From NCBI RefSeq assembly GCF_024362485.1, contig NZ_CP101456.1:2480001-2544000 (forward strand): 64,000 bases of DNA. The letters are read 5' to 3'. Of the stretch, positions 28,442 through 34,919 are shown piece by piece. The translations under genes were made by a program, and so were the position numbers. The notes under the pieces were generated by a model. That model had not been told where the DNA came from, searched no databases, and worked only from the letters and a program-made list of their open reading frames with translations. Within the stretch, counting starts at the first letter, position 1; each line of letters begins with the position of its first letter. This DNA is from Natronobeatus ordinarius (lineage in GTDB: Archaea > Halobacteriota > Halobacteria > Halobacteriales > Natrialbaceae).

Positions 28442-28870
28442 ATGAGTACCCAATCGACGGCGAACCGGATCCTCGAGGTGCTCGAGGAAGACGCCCAGGC
28501 GTCGTACGCGGAGATCGCCGACCGCGCAGGCGTCTCGAAGCCAACCGTGCGAAAGTACATCAAACAGCTCGAGGACGACGGCGTCATCGTCGGCTACTCG
28601 GCCGACGTCGACCCGAAGAAGCTCTCGAGCCAGACGATCGCGCTGGTCGGGATGGACGTCGCCAGCGAACGCTACGTCGAGGCGACGAAAGCGCTCAAAG
28701 AACTCGAGGACGTCGAGTCGCTGTACACCTCGAGCGGCGACCACATGCTGATGGCCGAAGTCCGGGCGAGCGACGGCGACGAGCTCGGCGAGATCATCTC
28801 CGAGGAGATCCTCGAGATCGAGGGCGTCACGGCTGCCCACCCGTCGTTCCTGCAGGAACGGCTGAAGTAA
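28442..28870 (+). CDS. Lrp/AsnC family transcriptional regulator
   Basis: A 142-aa regulator. The N-terminal HTH reads RILEVLEEDAQASYAEIADR with GVSKPTVRKYIKQLEDDG, followed by the hinge VIVGYSADVDPKKL. The C-terminal RAM domain spans ALVGMDVASERYVEATKAL to VTAAHPSF. These proteins sense amino acids or related metabolites and bind DNA as dimers or octamers. The target cannot be inferred from sequence; it is monocistronic. Confidence 0.92.
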   Translation: MSTQSTANRILEVLEEDAQASYAEIADRAGVSKPTVRKYIKQLEDDGVIVGYSADVDPKKLSSQTIALVGMDVASERYVEATKALKELEDVESLYTSSGDHMLMAEVRASDGDELGEIISEEILEIEGVTAAHPSFLQERLK

Positions 28871-28957: not shown

Positions 28958-29443
28958 ATGCCGAGTTACGAGCGCGTCACACGCGTCGACGCCCCGCTCG
29001 AGGAGGTCTGGCAGTTTCACTCCCGCGTGGAGGGACTCGAGACGCTCACGCCGGACTGGATGCAACTTCGCGTCGAGGGGGTGATCGGCCCCGACGGCGA
29101 GCCGGAACCAGCAGTTCTGGAGGAGGGAGCGGAGATCGAGCTGTCGATGCGGCCGTTCGGCGTCGGGCCGCGCCAGTCCTGGACCTCGCTGATCACCGCC
29201 CGCGAGCGCCGCAACGGCACGGCGTACTTTCGCGACGAGATGGTCGACGGCCCGTTCGACCGGTGGGAACACACCCACGCCTTCTACGCCGACGGACCGG
29301 AGACGATCGTTCGCGATCGGGTCGAGTTCGAACTCCCGCTGGGTGGCCTCGGCGACGTGCTCGAGCCGTTCTCGCGGATCGGGTTCGAGCCAATGTTTCG
29401 CCACCGCCACCGACGGACGCGACGCGTGCTCGAGAGCCAGTAA
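28958..29443 (+). CDS. SRPBCC family protein
   Basis: A 161-aa protein starting MPSYERVTRVDAPLEEVWQF, the first strand and helix of the START/SRPBCC ligand-binding fold. WTSLITARERRNGTAYFRDE and DGPFDRWEHTHAFY follow in the positions of the central sheet. VEFELPLGGLGDVLEPFSRI is the long C-terminal helix. Members bind hydrophobic ligands or act as cyclases/dehydratases; the ligand here is unknown. It precedes the NosL cluster on the same strand by about 100 bp. Confidence 0.85.
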   Translation: MPSYERVTRVDAPLEEVWQFHSRVEGLETLTPDWMQLRVEGVIGPDGEPEPAVLEEGAEIELSMRPFGVGPRQSWTSLITARERRNGTAYFRDEMVDGPFDRWEHTHAFYADGPETIVRDRVEFELPLGGLGDVLEPFSRIGFEPMFRHRHRRTRRVLESQ

Positions 29444-29490
29444 GACCGACCGGCCAGGACCGGGCACCAATGGTTCGATCGTCGAAACTG

Positions 29491-29519
29491 TTCGACGGCT
29501 GAACCAAACGGGCTTTTGC
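29491..29519 (+). promoter_or_regulatory. Promoter box of the first NosL-like gene
   Basis: TTCGACGGCTGAACCAAACG followed by GGCTTTTGC ends about 23 nt before the ATG at 29542. An 18-of-20 match to the same box lies before the second NosL-like gene at identical distance, and a weaker match before the third. The T-rich part is in TATA position. Confidence 0.65.
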
Positions 29520-29541
29520 AGCTGTCGGTCAACGTGGAAGT

Positions 29542-30246
29542 ATGTCCAGATTCGACGACCGGACAGTCGACAGGCGATGGGTGCTCGGAACGATCGGTGC
29601 TGGGACGGCGGTCGGGCTCGCCGGCTGTCTGGGTGGTGATGATGAGGACGACGACGGTGGAACTGACGACGGTGCGGACGGCGACGACGCGAACGGCGAC
29701 GCCGACGACACGAACGGCGAGGGGGAGCTCGCGTTCGACGAGGCCGACTTCCCCGAGGGGCGTGAGTGTGCCGTCTGTAGCATGGTCGCCAGGGAGTATC
29801 CCGACTGGAACGCCCAGCTCGTCCACGAGGACGGTCACCGGGAGTACTTCTGCTCTGCCGGCTGTCTCTCGGCGTACTACGCCGCACCCGAGGAGTTCGG
29901 CGGTCCCGATTCGGAGATCGTCGGCGTCTGGGTCACCGACTACGAGACCGGAGACCTCGTCGACGGCACCGACGCCTACTACGTCCGGGTGACCGATCCG
30001 GATCACGTCGACGACATCATGATGCGCAACCCGACGCCGTTCGCCGACCGCGACGACGCGGTGGCGTTCGTCGAGGCGTTCGACGAGTACGACGAAGCGG
30101 ACATCATCACGCTCGAGGACTTTGACATGGACCTGGCGATGCTGTATCGCAGTCGGTTCTTCGAGGACGGTGACGACGGCCACGGCCACGGCGACGACGG
30201 CCACGGCCACGGCCACGGCGACGACGGCCACGGCCACGATCACTGA
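29542..30246 (+). CDS. NosL-like lipoprotein 1 with His-rich tail
   Basis: A 234-aa lipoprotein. DRRWVLGTIGAGTAVGLAGC gives a Tat-type twin Arg and lipobox; an Asp/Asn-rich linker follows. The NosL-type core contains CAVCSMVAREYPDWNAQLVH and YFCSAGCLSAYY. NosL is a copper-binding accessory lipoprotein of nitrous oxide reductase maturation, using Cys and Met in a CxxCxM-like motif. The tail has repeated HGHGDDGHGH, about ten His in 21 residues, a likely extra metal site. No nosZ or nosDFY is present, so a broader copper or metal-delivery role is inferred. Two paralogues follow. Confidence 0.88.
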   Translation: MSRFDDRTVDRRWVLGTIGAGTAVGLAGCLGGDDEDDDGGTDDGADGDDANGDADDTNGEGELAFDEADFPEGRECAVCSMVAREYPDWNAQLVHEDGHREYFCSAGCLSAYYAAPEEFGGPDSEIVGVWVTDYETGDLVDGTDAYYVRVTDPDHVDDIMMRNPTPFADRDDAVAFVEAFDEYDEADIITLEDFDMDLAMLYRSRFFEDGDDGHGHGDDGHGHGHGDDGHGHDH

Positions 30247-30344
30247 TCGAATCGGGGACGGTCGACGATCCACGTCGACCGACGCGTGCCAGCCTCGACA
30301 TCGAACCGTTCGACCGGACGTACTCTCGAACTACCCAAAACACA

Positions 30345-31103
30345 GTGAGAGTAGATCGCCTCCGCGAATGTAGCTTCACGCTGGCCTACGAACCCGGCAC
30401 CGGCCCGGTCGTAGACTACTTTTTCGACCAGCCACAGCTTCGGCTGTCGGTGGTTGACGTCACGACCGGCCGTCGGTCGGCCGTACGCTTCGTTCGACTC
30501 ACCGGCCCGCCGGAAGCGGTCGATCGACTGCAGACGGTTCTCGAGGAGCGCGAGTACCTCCCACGGGCGATCGGTGACGGACGGTGTCGTGGATGGAGTT
30601 CGTACTCGCCCCTCGAGTGTGCCCCGGGACGGCGGCTGGTATACGTCGCCGTCGACGAACTCTCGGGGGAGCCGTCCGTTCTTTCGCTCGTGTCGACACA
30701 TTTGCGCCGAGGGACGGTCACCGAGCACAGCCAGCAGGGTGGTCGGGAACGGTGGCGGCTACTGGTTCGGGCTGCCGAGCCAGTCCGTGAGGTGTACGAT
30801 CGCATCGACGCGGCCTGTGGGGACGGCGTGACGGTCGACGTCGGACACGTCGGGACACCGAGGGAGTGGGACGAAGACTGGATCGCTGCACCCGAGTTGG
30901 CTGGCCCGCAACAACAGGCGATCGTACAGGCAGCTGCGAACGGCTACTACGAGCGACCCCGGGAGATCACGCTCGAGGAGCTCGCTGACGAACTCGACGT
31001 GCCAGCATCGACGCTGTCCTATCGCCTTCGAGTAGCCGAATCGACGCTCGTCGAACGGTACCTGGATCGGTGTGCCGGGGCGGGCGCCCCTTCACACATC
31101 TGA
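30345..31103 (+). CDS. Bacterio-opsin activator-type HTH regulator
   Basis: A 252-aa protein starting with GTG at 30345 (read MRVDRLRECSF). The N-terminal 180 residues form the haloarchaeal sensor-like region (RLSVVDVTTGRRSAVRFVRL and SLVSTHLRRG). The C-terminus has the HTH_10 domain: LAGPQQQAIVQAAANGYYER, then ITLEELADELDVPASTLSYR. It is similar in layout to Bat-type activators but lacks PAS/GAF sensors. It lies between the first and second NosL-like genes, suggesting it regulates them. No better upstream ATG exists in frame. Confidence 0.87.
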   Translation: MRVDRLRECSFTLAYEPGTGPVVDYFFDQPQLRLSVVDVTTGRRSAVRFVRLTGPPEAVDRLQTVLEEREYLPRAIGDGRCRGWSSYSPLECAPGRRLVYVAVDELSGEPSVLSLVSTHLRRGTVTEHSQQGGRERWRLLVRAAEPVREVYDRIDAACGDGVTVDVGHVGTPREWDEDWIAAPELAGPQQQAIVQAAANGYYERPREITLEELADELDVPASTLSYRLRVAESTLVERYLDRCAGAGAPSHI

Positions 31104-31152
31104 CCGCGGAAATGCGCCACTCCGAAGGCGGCGATGGGTCCCGACGGACCGG

Positions 31153-31179
31153 TTCGACGGCTGGACCAGACGCGTTTTG
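31153..31179 (+). promoter_or_regulatory. Promoter box of the second NosL-like gene
   Basis: TTCGACGGCTGGACCAGACG followed by CGTTTTG is positioned as in the first NosL-like gene: the 20-bp box ends 32 nt before the ATG at 31204. Confidence 0.65.
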
Positions 31180-31203
31180 ACTGGTGCGGACCAACTGTCG
31201 GTC

Positions 31204-31875
31204 ATGTCCAGACCCGACCAGCGATCGGTCGATAGACGGTGGGTGCTCAGCACGATCGGCGCGGGAACGGCGATCGGCCTTGCCGGCTGTCTCGGTGACG
31301 AGGCGGACGACGAACCGGTCGACGAGGGAGACGACGAATCCGATGCGGCCGACGACGAAACCGGGGAGGCAGAACTCGCGATCGACGAACCGGCTGACTT
31401 CCCCGACGATCGGCAGTGTGCCGTCTGCAGCATGACCGCCGCGGAGTACCCCGACTGGAACGGGCAGGTCGTCCACGAAGACGAACACCGGGAGTACTTC
31501 TGTTCGACGGGCTGTCTCGTCGCGTACTACTTCGCCCCCGAGAAGTTCACGTCCGGCGATCCGGACGAGCCGATCGTCGGCGTCTGGGCGACGAGCTTCG
31601 AGAGCGGCGATCTCGTCGACGCCACCGAGGGCTACTTCGTCTACGAACAGGACCGCGAGCGTCAGGACTTCCCGATGCCGATGGGCAGTCCACTCGCGTT
31701 CGAGGATCGGGACGACGCCGTTTCCTACGTCGAGACGTACGACGACCTGAACGAGGACGACCACGTGATCGTGCTCGAGGACGTCGACCGCGAAATCGCG
31801 GAGTTCTACCGGGCCCCGCGACTCGAGGACGAACGCGACGACGGCGACGGAGCGGACGACGACCACGGCCACTGA
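31204..31875 (+). CDS. NosL-like lipoprotein 2
   Basis: A 223-aa lipoprotein. DRRWVLSTIGAGTAIGLAGC is nearly the leader of the first paralogue. The core has CAVCSMTAAEYPDWNGQVVH and YFCSTGCLVAYYF, with the CxxCxM copper-type motif intact. Residues 150-200 continue with MPMGSPLAFEDRDDAVSYVE. The His-rich tail is reduced to a terminal DDDHGH. It is 328 nt downstream of the first paralogue's regulator start region and has its own copy of the promoter box. Tandem duplication from paralogue 1 is the simplest origin. Confidence 0.88.
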   Translation: MSRPDQRSVDRRWVLSTIGAGTAIGLAGCLGDEADDEPVDEGDDESDAADDETGEAELAIDEPADFPDDRQCAVCSMTAAEYPDWNGQVVHEDEHREYFCSTGCLVAYYFAPEKFTSGDPDEPIVGVWATSFESGDLVDATEGYFVYEQDRERQDFPMPMGSPLAFEDRDDAVSYVETYDDLNEDDHVIVLEDVDREIAEFYRAPRLEDERDDGDGADDDHGH

Positions 31876-31929
31876 CGATCACTGAATATCGTCTCCACGG
31901 CCCACGAGGGCGGCCACGCCTCGAGTAGT

Positions 31930-31957
31930 TTCGAGTCCTGTACCGGACGGGTTTTTC
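31930..31957 (+). promoter_or_regulatory. Promoter box of the third NosL-like gene
   Basis: TTCGAGTCCTGTACCGGACG followed by GGTTTTTCC. It matches the first box at 14 of 20 positions and ends 33 nt before the ATG at 31982. Confidence 0.55.
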
Positions 31958-31981
31958 CGTTCGCGAACCGAGGGATACTCC

Positions 31982-32581
31982 ATGAGCAGAGATTCGACCG
32001 GTGACACACCGGTCGGCCGACGAGCGCTCCTCGGGACGATCGGCGTCGGTTCTGTCGCCGCGTTCGCGGGCTGTTTCGGTGACGACGACGAGCTGTCCCA
32101 GCCGGACGGCGGTACCGCCGGGAACACGCCCGCCCAGTCGTACGACGACGTCCCGATCGACGAACTCGCCGACTTTCCGGACGATAGCTGTGAAGTCTGT
32201 GCGATGCTTCCGGCGAACTTCCCCGAGTGGAACGCCCAGCTCGTTCACGAGAACGGCGACCGCGGCTTTTGCTGTACGCCTGGCTGTGCGGTCGCCTACT
32301 TCGCCAAGCCCGAGGCGTTCGGCGGTCCCGACGCGCCGGTCGCCAGCTTCTGGATGACCGAGTTCGAGACGGCCGAGTTCATCGACGCCTTCGAGGCGAC
32401 GTACGTCTTAGAGTACGAGACGGGACACATCGACCAGCCGATGGGACGAAATCCCTACCCGTTCGAGAACGAGGACGACGCGTACGGGCTCGTCGCCGAC
32501 TACGACCATCTCGAGGACGAACACGTCGTGACGTTTGAGGAGATCGACGAAGAGATCGCGAGAGAGTACCGCCACTTTTAG
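31982..32581 (+). CDS. NosL-like lipoprotein 3
   Basis: A 199-aa lipoprotein with GRRALLGTIGVGSVAAFAGC as leader and lipobox. The core is more divergent: CEVCAMLPANFPEWNAQLVH and GFCCTPGCAVAYF, keeping CxxCxM but altering the second Cys cluster to CCTPGC. It lacks a His tail. It is the most diverged of the three paralogues, both in protein and promoter. A strong palindrome follows the stop codon. Confidence 0.86.
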   Translation: MSRDSTGDTPVGRRALLGTIGVGSVAAFAGCFGDDDELSQPDGGTAGNTPAQSYDDVPIDELADFPDDSCEVCAMLPANFPEWNAQLVHENGDRGFCCTPGCAVAYFAKPEAFGGPDAPVASFWMTEFETAEFIDAFEATYVLEYETGHIDQPMGRNPYPFENEDDAYGLVADYDHLEDEHVVTFEEIDEEIAREYRHF

Positions 32582-32723: not shown

Positions 32724-34919
32724 TCAATCGCTTCCGCGAAGGGTCGCGTCCGAGCGTTCTACCCGCCGTCGCTGGTCCGCTGAGAGCGTCGACGACTGGA
32801 ACGTCGCCCCGGAGATCGTGACCGCGTCCAGTTCGACCCCCGAGAGATCGGCACCGGTCAGCGTGGCCCGCGAGAGGTCTGCCCCGTCCAAGAGACAGTC
32901 GCGTAGCGTCGCGTCCCGGAGATCGCCTCCGGAGAACGTGGCCGCGGTGGCGTAGCCGCTCGAGAGGTCGGCGCCGACCAGCGCCGCGTCCTCGAGTGAC
33001 GCCTTCTTCAGGCTCGCGCGCGAGAGGTCGGCACCCCGCGCAATCGCCCCCGAGAGCGTCGCCTTCTCGAGCGTGGCCTCCGAGAGATCGGTCCCGGAGA
33101 GGTCGGCGTCGGCGAGGTCCGCGCCCACCAGGTCGGCTTCCCGTAGATCGGCTGCCGAGAGGTCCGCGCCCACGAGCGTCGCCCGGCGCAGGCTCGTCTC
33201 CTCGAGGTCGAACCCCGAGAGATCGGCGGAGGGGAGGACGGCACCGCGCAGGTTCGCGTCCCGAAGGTCCACCTCGCGCAGGTCGGCGACCGAGGGAAAC
33301 GGGTGTAACAGCACGCCCTCGATCTCCGGCTCGTCGCCGAGTCTGGCGGCCGTCAGGTCGACCTCCCAGCAGTACGAACCGCCGTACGCCGCACCGCGGA
33401 GGTCGGCGTCGGTCAACTCGGCGTTCGCGAGGGTCGCCTCGTTCAGGTTCGCGTCCGTGAGGTCCGCCCTCGTCAGCACGGCGTCGGTCAGCGTCGCTCG
33501 CCACAGGTCCGCACCTTCGAGCGCGGCCTCCGAGAGGGTCGCCCCGGCAAGCGTGGCGTTTCGAAGCGTTGCCCCCGGGAGATGCGCCCCTCCCAGATCG
33601 GCGTCGGTCGCCGTCGCACCCGAGAGGTCGGCGCCCGAGAGGGTCGCTCGCCGCAGGGACGCCTCCGCGAGCGTCGCGTCCGCCAGGGTCGCGTCGGAGA
33701 GGTCGGCGTCGGTCAACGCCGCTCCCGACAGGTCGGCACCCCGCAGGTCCGCGCCCGAGAGGTCCGCCCCGCGCAGGTCCGCAGCCGAGAGGTCGGCGCC
33801 CGAGAGGGTCGCCCCGGAGAGGTCCTCGCCGGCCAGATCGGCACCGGCAAGGTCCGCAGCCGGCAGCGTGGCGTCAACGAACTCGACCGCGAGCAGGTCG
33901 GCCCTCGACGGGTCGGGGCCCAAGAGCCACTCGTCCGACCGGTCAGTCCCCCCGAGGTCCGCGCCCGAGAGATCCGCCCCGCGGACGTTGGCGTCGGTCA
34001 GGTCCGTCTCGGCGAGGTCGACGTCCGCGAGCGTCGCCTCGAACAGCGTGGCGCCGGCGAGGGTCGCGTCCGTCAGGGTCGCCCCCGACAGGTCTGCGTC
34101 GGCCAGGGTCGCCCCCGAGAGGTCTGCGCCCTCGAGGTCGGCACCCGCGAGGGTCGCTTCCCGGAGGTCGGTGTTCGAGAGGTCGGCGCCCCGAAGGTCG
34201 GCGTCCGAGAGAGTCGCCCGCCACAGACTCGCTCCCGCGAGCCGCGCGGAACGGAGGTCGCCACCGGAGAGCGTCGCGTTGTCGAACGTGGCGTCGGCGA
34301 AGTCCCCGCGGGCGAGGACGGCCTCGGTAAACGTCGCCCACTGGCAGTCGACACCGACGGCGTCGGCGTCCGCCAGGGTCGCGCCGGCGAGGTCCGACTC
34401 GGCGAGCGAGCCCGCGGCGAGCGTGGTCCCCCGCAGGTCGGCCTCGGAGAGGTCCGCCTCCCGGAACGTCACCCTGAAGAGGTCCAGGCCGCGAAGGTCG
34501 GCGCCCGGGAGCGACGCGCCCCGGAGTTCGGCGCCGTCGAGCCGCGCCTCGACCAGCCGGTCGATCGAATACGTCGCCCACCCGAGGGACGCCCCTGACA
34601 GCGCCGCGTCGTGGAGGTCCGCTCCCCGGAGGTCTGCACAGTCCAGCCGCGCGTCCGTGAGGGTCGCCTCGCGCACCGTGGCGTCCGAGAGGTCCGCCTC
34701 GAACAGGTCGGCACCGGCGAGGTCGGCCCGCTCGAGCCTGGCGTCTGCCAGCGTCGCGCGATTCAACGCGGCGTCCGAGAGGTCGGCGCCCCGGAGGTCA
34801 GCCTCGGAGAGGTCGACGCCGTGCAGCCCGACCCCCGAGAGGTCCGCCCCGGCCAGGTGCGCACCCGACCGGAGCCGGTCGGGGTCGATCTCCGGATCCG
34901 ACTCGTTACCGTCGATCAT
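32724..34919 (-). CDS. Large pentapeptide-repeat protein
   Basis: A 731-aa protein composed almost entirely of A(D/T)L-x-x pentapeptides, such as GADLSGADLRGADLS and ADATLAGATLFEA. This predicts a right-handed quadrilateral beta-helix of over thirty coils. Two breaks interrupt the pattern: around GTDRSDEWLLGPDPSRADL (about residue 330) and GGSYCWEVDLTAARLGDEPE (about 515). No signal peptide or membrane segment is visible, so it is probably cytoplasmic. Shorter relatives (MfpA/Qnr) mimic DNA and bind gyrase; whether that applies here is unknown. The highly repetitive DNA makes assembly error or length variation possible. Confidence 0.9.
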   Translation of the reverse strand: MIDGNESDPEIDPDRLRSGAHLAGADLSGVGLHGVDLSEADLRGADLSDAALNRATLADARLERADLAGADLFEADLSDATVREATLTDARLDCADLRGADLHDAALSGASLGWATYSIDRLVEARLDGAELRGASLPGADLRGLDLFRVTFREADLSEADLRGTTLAAGSLAESDLAGATLADADAVGVDCQWATFTEAVLARGDFADATFDNATLSGGDLRSARLAGASLWRATLSDADLRGADLSNTDLREATLAGADLEGADLSGATLADADLSGATLTDATLAGATLFEATLADVDLAETDLTDANVRGADLSGADLGGTDRSDEWLLGPDPSRADLLAVEFVDATLPAADLAGADLAGEDLSGATLSGADLSAADLRGADLSGADLRGADLSGAALTDADLSDATLADATLAEASLRRATLSGADLSGATATDADLGGAHLPGATLRNATLAGATLSEAALEGADLWRATLTDAVLTRADLTDANLNEATLANAELTDADLRGAAYGGSYCWEVDLTAARLGDEPEIEGVLLHPFPSVADLREVDLRDANLRGAVLPSADLSGFDLEETSLRRATLVGADLSAADLREADLVGADLADADLSGTDLSEATLEKATLSGAIARGADLSRASLKKASLEDAALVGADLSSGYATAATFSGGDLRDATLRDCLLDGADLSRATLTGADLSGVELDAVTISGATFQSSTLSADQRRRVERSDATLRGSD

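Follow-up and report, generated by a model that had tools for sequence, protein, structure and literature searches.

We analysed a 64,000-nucleotide (nt) stretch of the Natronobeatus ordinarius genome (contig NZ_CP101456.1, positions 2,480,001 to 2,544,000 of the forward strand; hereafter the window) that contains three genes for NosL-type lipoproteins, each preceded by a 20-bp promoter box, and a Bat-type regulator, here called REG. The window is haloarchaeal in character, with GC-rich genes and strongly acidic proteins. The genes in question are the following:

29542..30246, plus strand: NosL1, a 234-amino-acid (aa) lipoprotein with a twin-arginine translocation (Tat) signal and lipobox, the motifs CAVCSM and FCSAGC and a His-rich tail GHGHGDDGHGHGHGDDGHGHDH; PF05573, 54.6 bits
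30345..31103, plus strand: REG, 252 aa, between NosL1 and NosL2; PF24281 (HVO_2928_N), 152.9 bits, and HTH_10 (PF04967), 53.8 bits
31204..31875, plus strand: NosL2, a 223-aa lipoprotein with CAVCSM; PF05573, 52.4 bits
31982..32581, plus strand: NosL3, a 199-aa lipoprotein with CEVCAM and FCCTPGC; PF05573, 46.4 bits

All three NosL genes scored above the curated cut-off of 24 bits for the NosL family PF05573, and each product carries a lipobox cysteine and a CxxCxM motif, in agreement with the initial annotation, which had been made from the sequence without database searches. In an alignment of 17 NosL sequences, C29, C76, C79, M81 and M160, which represent the lipobox cysteine, the copper motif and a second methionine, were invariant. 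For NosL, CxxCxM (the clade II form) and a second invariant methionine, as well as Cu(I) binding through CxxCxM, have been reported previously (PMC6530538). The PDB sequence matches of NosL1 were the NosL entries 7znq and 7osf. NosL1 and NosL2 are 64% identical to each other, and the nearest relative of NosL2, at 75% identity, was found in genome G101. On these sequence features, the three proteins are membrane-anchored copper chaperones of the NosL family, with copper binding predicted.

Upstream of the three genes, the following elements were located:

29471..29506, plus strand: extended inverted repeat, copy 1, TGGTTCGATCGTCGAA-ACTG-TTCGACGGCTGAACCA, with Box 1 as its right half
29490..29509, plus strand: Box 1, GTTCGACGGCTGAACCAAAC, with half-site TTCGA-N6-AACCAAA, 32 nt before the NosL1 ATG
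29514..29517, plus strand: TATA-like TTTT of NosL1, at -28 to -25 of the ATG; putative leaderless-type promoter
31152..31171, plus strand: Box 2, GTTCGACGGCTGGACCAGAC, 32 nt before the NosL2 ATG
31175..31178, plus strand: TATA-like TTTT of NosL2, at -29 to -26 of the ATG
31929..31948, plus strand: Box 3, TTTCGAGTCCTGTACCGGAC, 33 nt before the NosL3 ATG
31952..31956, plus strand: TATA-like TTTTT of NosL3, at -30 to -26 of the ATG

Boxes 1 and 2 are identical at 18/20 positions, Boxes 2 and 3 at 14/20, and Boxes 1 and 3 at 13/20; these spacings and the first two identities reproduce those initially described. The combined box pattern had 2 matches in the window versus 0.10 ± 0.30 in shuffled sequences, and the likeness of Boxes 1 and 2 is beyond chance. 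The core element is a half-site, TTCGA-N6-[R/T]ACC(ARA), lying directly 5′ of the TATA element. Box 3 retains this half-site alone (TTCGA-N6-TACC), with one mismatch to the pattern TTCGA-N7-ACCARA. The distance from the TATA element to the start in the NosL1 promoter is that of established haloarchaeal promoters. Because a T-run lies at about -25 to -30 in all three promoters, the transcripts are probably leaderless, with the half-site abutting the transcription factor B recognition element (BRE).

A genome-wide search for the full box, allowing up to 3 mismatches, returned 6 matches, one of which (2 mismatches) ends 31 nt before the start of nosD. The pattern TTCGA-N7-ACCARA matched exactly at five sites in the 4.2-Mb genome: upstream of NosL1, NosL2, nosD, an SCO1 gene, and a gene for a YgaP-like small membrane protein. 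In four of these cases, 32-33 nt separate the box from the start codon; for the SCO1 gene the distance is 34 or 25 nt, depending on the choice between two ATGs. Five exact boxes are close to chance expectation, given that about five would follow from the 158 one-mismatch matches, and a reversed-pattern control was too lenient for this pattern. The genome-wide count was accordingly dropped as evidence in favour of the positions: the probability that at least four of the five exact boxes would fall at 32-34 nt by chance is approximately 3e-11, a rough estimate that assumes 4,300 genes. One-mismatch boxes are mostly chance occurrences, and two among 25 examined were at promoter spacing. Of these two, one lies 32 nt before an enoyl-CoA-hydratase-like gene. 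The other lies 33 nt before a gene (L232:1552-2175, near C1:62137) whose product is a membrane protein of 208 aa that matches no Pfam family, possibly a further member of the regulon proposed below.

The element is conserved in relatives, where the half-site and its spacing are kept before NosL1/2 orthologs. Several of these promoters, like copy 1 in the window, extend the half-site to an inverted repeat, TGGTTCGA-N2-GTCGAA-N4-TTCGAC-N5-[R/T]ACCA. In the loci retrieved here, TTCGA-N7-ACC was present in the upstream regions of 19/31 NosL genes and 12/14 cydA genes versus 26/618 other genes (Fisher 1e-16 and 3e-14, respectively), and many of those 26 belonged to NosD, SCO or additional NosL genes. 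Further genes with a box in relatives encode NosD, SCO-like, and P19-like (DUF7350/Iron_transport) proteins, as well as beta-propeller lipoproteins that adjoin CopC. Across all these genes, the bases between the conserved blocks vary freely. Searching this genome and its relatives, as initially suggested, thus placed the box at fixed spacing before copper-assembly genes (nosD, SCO1 and other NosLs) and not before random genes. We also observed by eye a DyP/EfeB-like Tat peroxidase beside the box-bearing P19-like lipoprotein (L136, L139, L141) and beside nosD in the present genome (L011); the peroxidase and the P19-like lipoprotein together look like an EfeO/EfeB-type metal uptake set.

We then considered whether the NosLs serve nitrous oxide reductase. 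The initial annotation had reported that nosZ, nosD, nosF and nosY were absent. This is correct for the window, and for NosZ it extends to the whole genome (4.21 Mb, 99% complete), in which TIGR04246 gave only CuA-domain matches of at most 54.5 bits, compared with 520-546 bits in the 40/125 family genomes that bear NosZ. nosD, nosF and nosY, in contrast, are present elsewhere in the genome, at C1:1855613-1859186, roughly 650 kb away from the genes discussed here. They form part of a NosD-NosF-NosY-NosL cluster that is followed by an SCO1/SenC gene and then by a DsbD_2 gene (C1:1855613-1863260). Eleven NosL-domain matches were detected genome-wide, some of them to NosL-like domains at the N-terminus of NosD proteins. 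NosZ was absent from 15/18 relatives carrying the NosL1/2 clade; with NosZ present in only 3/18, these NosLs therefore do not depend on its presence. The possibility raised at the outset that nosZDFY adjoins the NosL genes in relatives held in part: in genomes G098, G100, G101, G106 and G108, NosD and further NosLs are encoded no more than a few kb from the NosL1 ortholog, and no NosZ was seen there. The locus in the window is thus not a nos denitrification cluster but probably part of a copper-delivery regulon, and the early suggestion of copper handling distinct from denitrification is supported by the absence of NosZ here and in most relatives of the clade and by the box before copper-assembly genes. 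As a separate observation, three consecutive large lipoprotein-like proteins are encoded beside NosL and NosD at L010:10022-14133 (C1:3433021-3437132), each with a NosL domain (WCPVCNM / LCPVCNM) after a long N-terminal region.

As for the regulator between the first two NosL genes, its Bat-like nature was confirmed by the PF24281 and HTH_10 matches, and a profile search gave no match to PAS or GAF domains in REG. Orthologs of REG (48-58% identity) were found in 14 relatives; those examined adjoin or lie very near cydAB, and none of them is near NosL; REG was seen beside NosL in this genome only. Pfam matches confirmed CydA and CydB beside a second REG-type copy in this genome, and REG in the window is paralogous to the regulator that accompanies cydAB in relatives. 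In the cydA promoters, the half-site is reversed in 12/14 cases, the two exceptions being cydA paralogs. The cydA promoters (L054:8085; L056-L068) also share TGGTTTAnCnATCGAA, often followed by the palindrome TTGGC-TATA-GCCAA, which is not found before the NosL genes and is possibly bound by the HVO_2928-type regulator linked to cydAB.

A different candidate for the box-binding factor emerged from the PF24266 (HVO_0163-like) family of tandem winged-helix proteins, present in 118/125 family genomes. Three copies occur in this genome, all outside the window. The copy wHTH-B immediately precedes the nosD box and nosDFY. Another, wHTH-A, and a DUF7471 gene diverge from each other (L186:5744-6869, C1:499743-500868), the DUF7471 product being a small membrane protein whose PM..HHLVEH motif is invariant; this pair is kept across genera, and DUF7471 is also found beside NosL1 orthologs. 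The third copy (L187:6941-10836, C1:1217940-1221835) precedes genes that resemble by eye a 2-hydroxyacyl-CoA dehydratase/benzoyl-CoA-reductase set; use of the family is therefore perhaps not confined to copper. An exact box was located within 3 kb of 13/37 PF24266 genes in five genera (a hand count covering the first genomes listed). At promoter spacing, we found 0/27 boxes in seven genomes without PF24266 versus 16/39 in six genomes with it (Fisher 4e-5). Within genus g24, the counts were 0/14 without PF24266 and 3/14 with it, the three boxes belonging to one SCO and two NosD genes, while a fourth, before DsbD_2, was at 35 nt. Since genomes without PF24266 often lack the targets too, this difference reflects co-occurrence of regulon and factor and not binding. 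The AlphaFold model of the winged-helix protein was weak (mean predicted local distance difference test score 66), with two winged-helix-like halves. These patterns suggest that the PF24266 protein is a better candidate trans-factor than REG, and its assignment to a copper regulon would be new.

Taken together, we propose that the NosLs belong to a genome-wide copper-supply regulon with the box as its switch, a PF24266 protein as its factor, induction at copper scarcity and clients other than NosZ, a reading to which we assign a probability of roughly 0.6. NosL1, NosL2, nosD (ahead of the ATP-binding cassette genes nosFY), SCO1/SenC (followed by DsbD_2) and the YgaP-like membrane protein would be under single control, and NosL3 more weakly so, through an element that immediately precedes BRE/TATA in leaderless promoters. 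The HVO_0163 family of tandem winged-helix proteins would supply the factor acting there. Because the targets are of the acquisition type and the site lies just upstream of the BRE, activation at copper scarcity appears the probable direction of control, the alternative being repression by copper. By the known roles of their families, NosDFY and SCO/DsbD_2 would help deliver copper; NosL, NosDFY and SCO may load it into the CuA of heme-copper oxidase and into halocyanin-type proteins instead of NosZ. The genes for the copper-free bd oxidase, cydAB, may be co-controlled via the reversed half-site, and such a link, if true, would constitute a copper-sparing respiration switch. A more specific proposal, which we regard as tentative and put somewhat below even odds, is a dedicated copper-starvation regulon in haloarchaea of this family, in which a PF24266 protein, paired with DUF7471, acts via TTCGA-N6-RACC(ARA) to induce the extracytoplasmic copper chaperones NosL, NosDFY, SCO1 and P19-like proteins and, through the reversed half-site, bd oxidase. 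If this is true, NosL and NosDFY would be decoupled from nitrous oxide reductase.

Several points weigh against the proposed copper-supply regulon. The five exact boxes, taken as a count, are about what chance would give, and the start of the SCO1 gene is uncertain, which makes the spacing of its box uncertain as well. The depletion of NosZ among genomes with the NosL1/2 clade was not significant (Fisher p = 0.18). Many genomes have their PF24266 gene at a distance from any box; loss of this gene tends to go along with loss of the targets, and the genomes compared are related. Inspection of the winged-helix protein sequence revealed no conserved cysteine and no obvious metal site.

Other explanations were weighed on the same evidence. 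REG itself was considered as the box-binding factor, controlling the three NosLs and cydAB as a respiratory or redox-linked copper switch, as suggested by its location between two box-bearing genes and by the reversed half-site in the cydA promoters of relatives whose REG orthologs adjoin cydAB. This candidate lost weight because some genomes have box promoters but no REG, and the reverse was seen as well. Genomes G003 and G004 have no REG match at E ≤ 1e-20 and yet carry 3/6 boxes each at promoter spacing; box-bearing NosD, SCO, P19 or NosL promoters were found without a REG ortholog in G049 and G050 as well as in these two genomes, whereas G008 has a REG-type gene and 0/5 boxes at promoter spacing. 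The orthologs in other genomes are not near NosL, and the palindrome of several cydA promoters, absent before the NosLs, may be REG's own site. We thus consider control by REG unlikely: it is probably not the box-binding factor or main controller, although it may add a respiratory input at the NosL locus, and the picture of three genes forming a closed system under the Bat-like regulator is not supported. A regulon responding to oxygen limitation and not to copper would account for the half-site in cydA promoters and would fit the Bat-type NarO and DmsR, which are anaerobic regulators in haloarchaea (PMC11218638). Most targets, however, belong to copper-binding or copper-delivery families (NosL, NosD, SCO1, CopC-adjacent lipoproteins, P19-like), and target sets that vary by genome nevertheless remain copper-related, so we rate this explanation as slightly less likely still.

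That the NosLs are remnants of a denitrification system after loss of NosZ would be in line with nosDFY and NosL occurring here without NosZ in a family where 40/125 genomes have it. The copy number has nevertheless expanded to 11 NosL domains with intact ligands and conserved promoters, the neighbours are SCO1 and DsbD_2, and 15/18 genomes of the clade lack NosZ, even if they do not differ significantly from the other genomes in this; we find this account improbable. The least credible explanation is that the boxes are a mere relic of tandem duplication of NosL with its promoter, with no regulon behind them. Such duplication would explain why NosL1 and NosL2 are 64% identical with boxes matching at 18/20 positions, but it is already contradicted by the same element at the same spacing before the unrelated nosD, SCO1 and YgaP-like genes here and before copper genes in many genera, and by the free variation of the bases between the blocks.

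The three NosL genes are flanked in the window by the following genes:

28442..28870, plus strand: Lrp/AsnC-family regulator, syntenic with NosL in relatives too (L153, L157, L118)
28958..29443, plus strand: Polyketide_cyc/SRPBCC protein, syntenic with NosL in relatives too
32724-34919, minus strand: pentapeptide-repeat protein (PF00805), 731 aa, nearly all repeats

The last of these adjoins NosL3 downstream on the opposite strand.

Annotations usually cast NosL, NosD, NosF and NosY as accessories of nitrous oxide reductase. Such annotations overstate haloarchaeal denitrification, because here the genes are expanded although NosZ is absent, and they have a promoter element in common with SCO1, a gene of heme-copper-oxidase assembly. 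In the open-licence literature searched, we found no description of the motif TTCGA-N6-[R/T]ACC or of a function for PF24266, and no regulator of copper supply in haloarchaea was described in the literature searched. For the candidate metal regulators of Haloferax mediterranei, one survey inferred a role with metals other than copper (PMC9240420). A short, exactly spaced motif, a named candidate factor and defined targets make the question testable in genetically tractable haloarchaea.

Compared with the NosL/NosDFY system of nitrous oxide reductase (clade II; PDB 7osf, 7znq), the genes described here agree in the NosL profile and PDB match, in CxxCxM and a second invariant methionine, and in the presence of NosD, NosF and NosY homologs. 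They differ in that NosZ is missing, eleven NosL domains are present, NosL1 and NosL2 are unlinked to nosDFY, and the promoter element is common to SCO1 (followed by DsbD_2). REG resembles the haloarchaeal regulators Bat, NarO and DmsR in carrying HTH_10; it differs in that its orthologs are linked to cydAB and the box does not track it. The HVO_0163-type (PF24266) proteins are represented by three copies here and are near-universal in the family, with the copper-regulon role newly inferred. A further parallel is provided by Bacillus subtilis ycnKJI, a copper-acquisition operon regulated by YcnK and CsoR (PMC12154828). As in that operon, copper genes here would be under one dedicated control, and CopC-type genes lie beside box genes in some relatives. 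Unlike it, the present system is archaeal, has as its candidate regulator a tandem winged-helix protein lacking any sensor domain of a known kind, and spreads its genes over many single promoters rather than gathering them in one operon.

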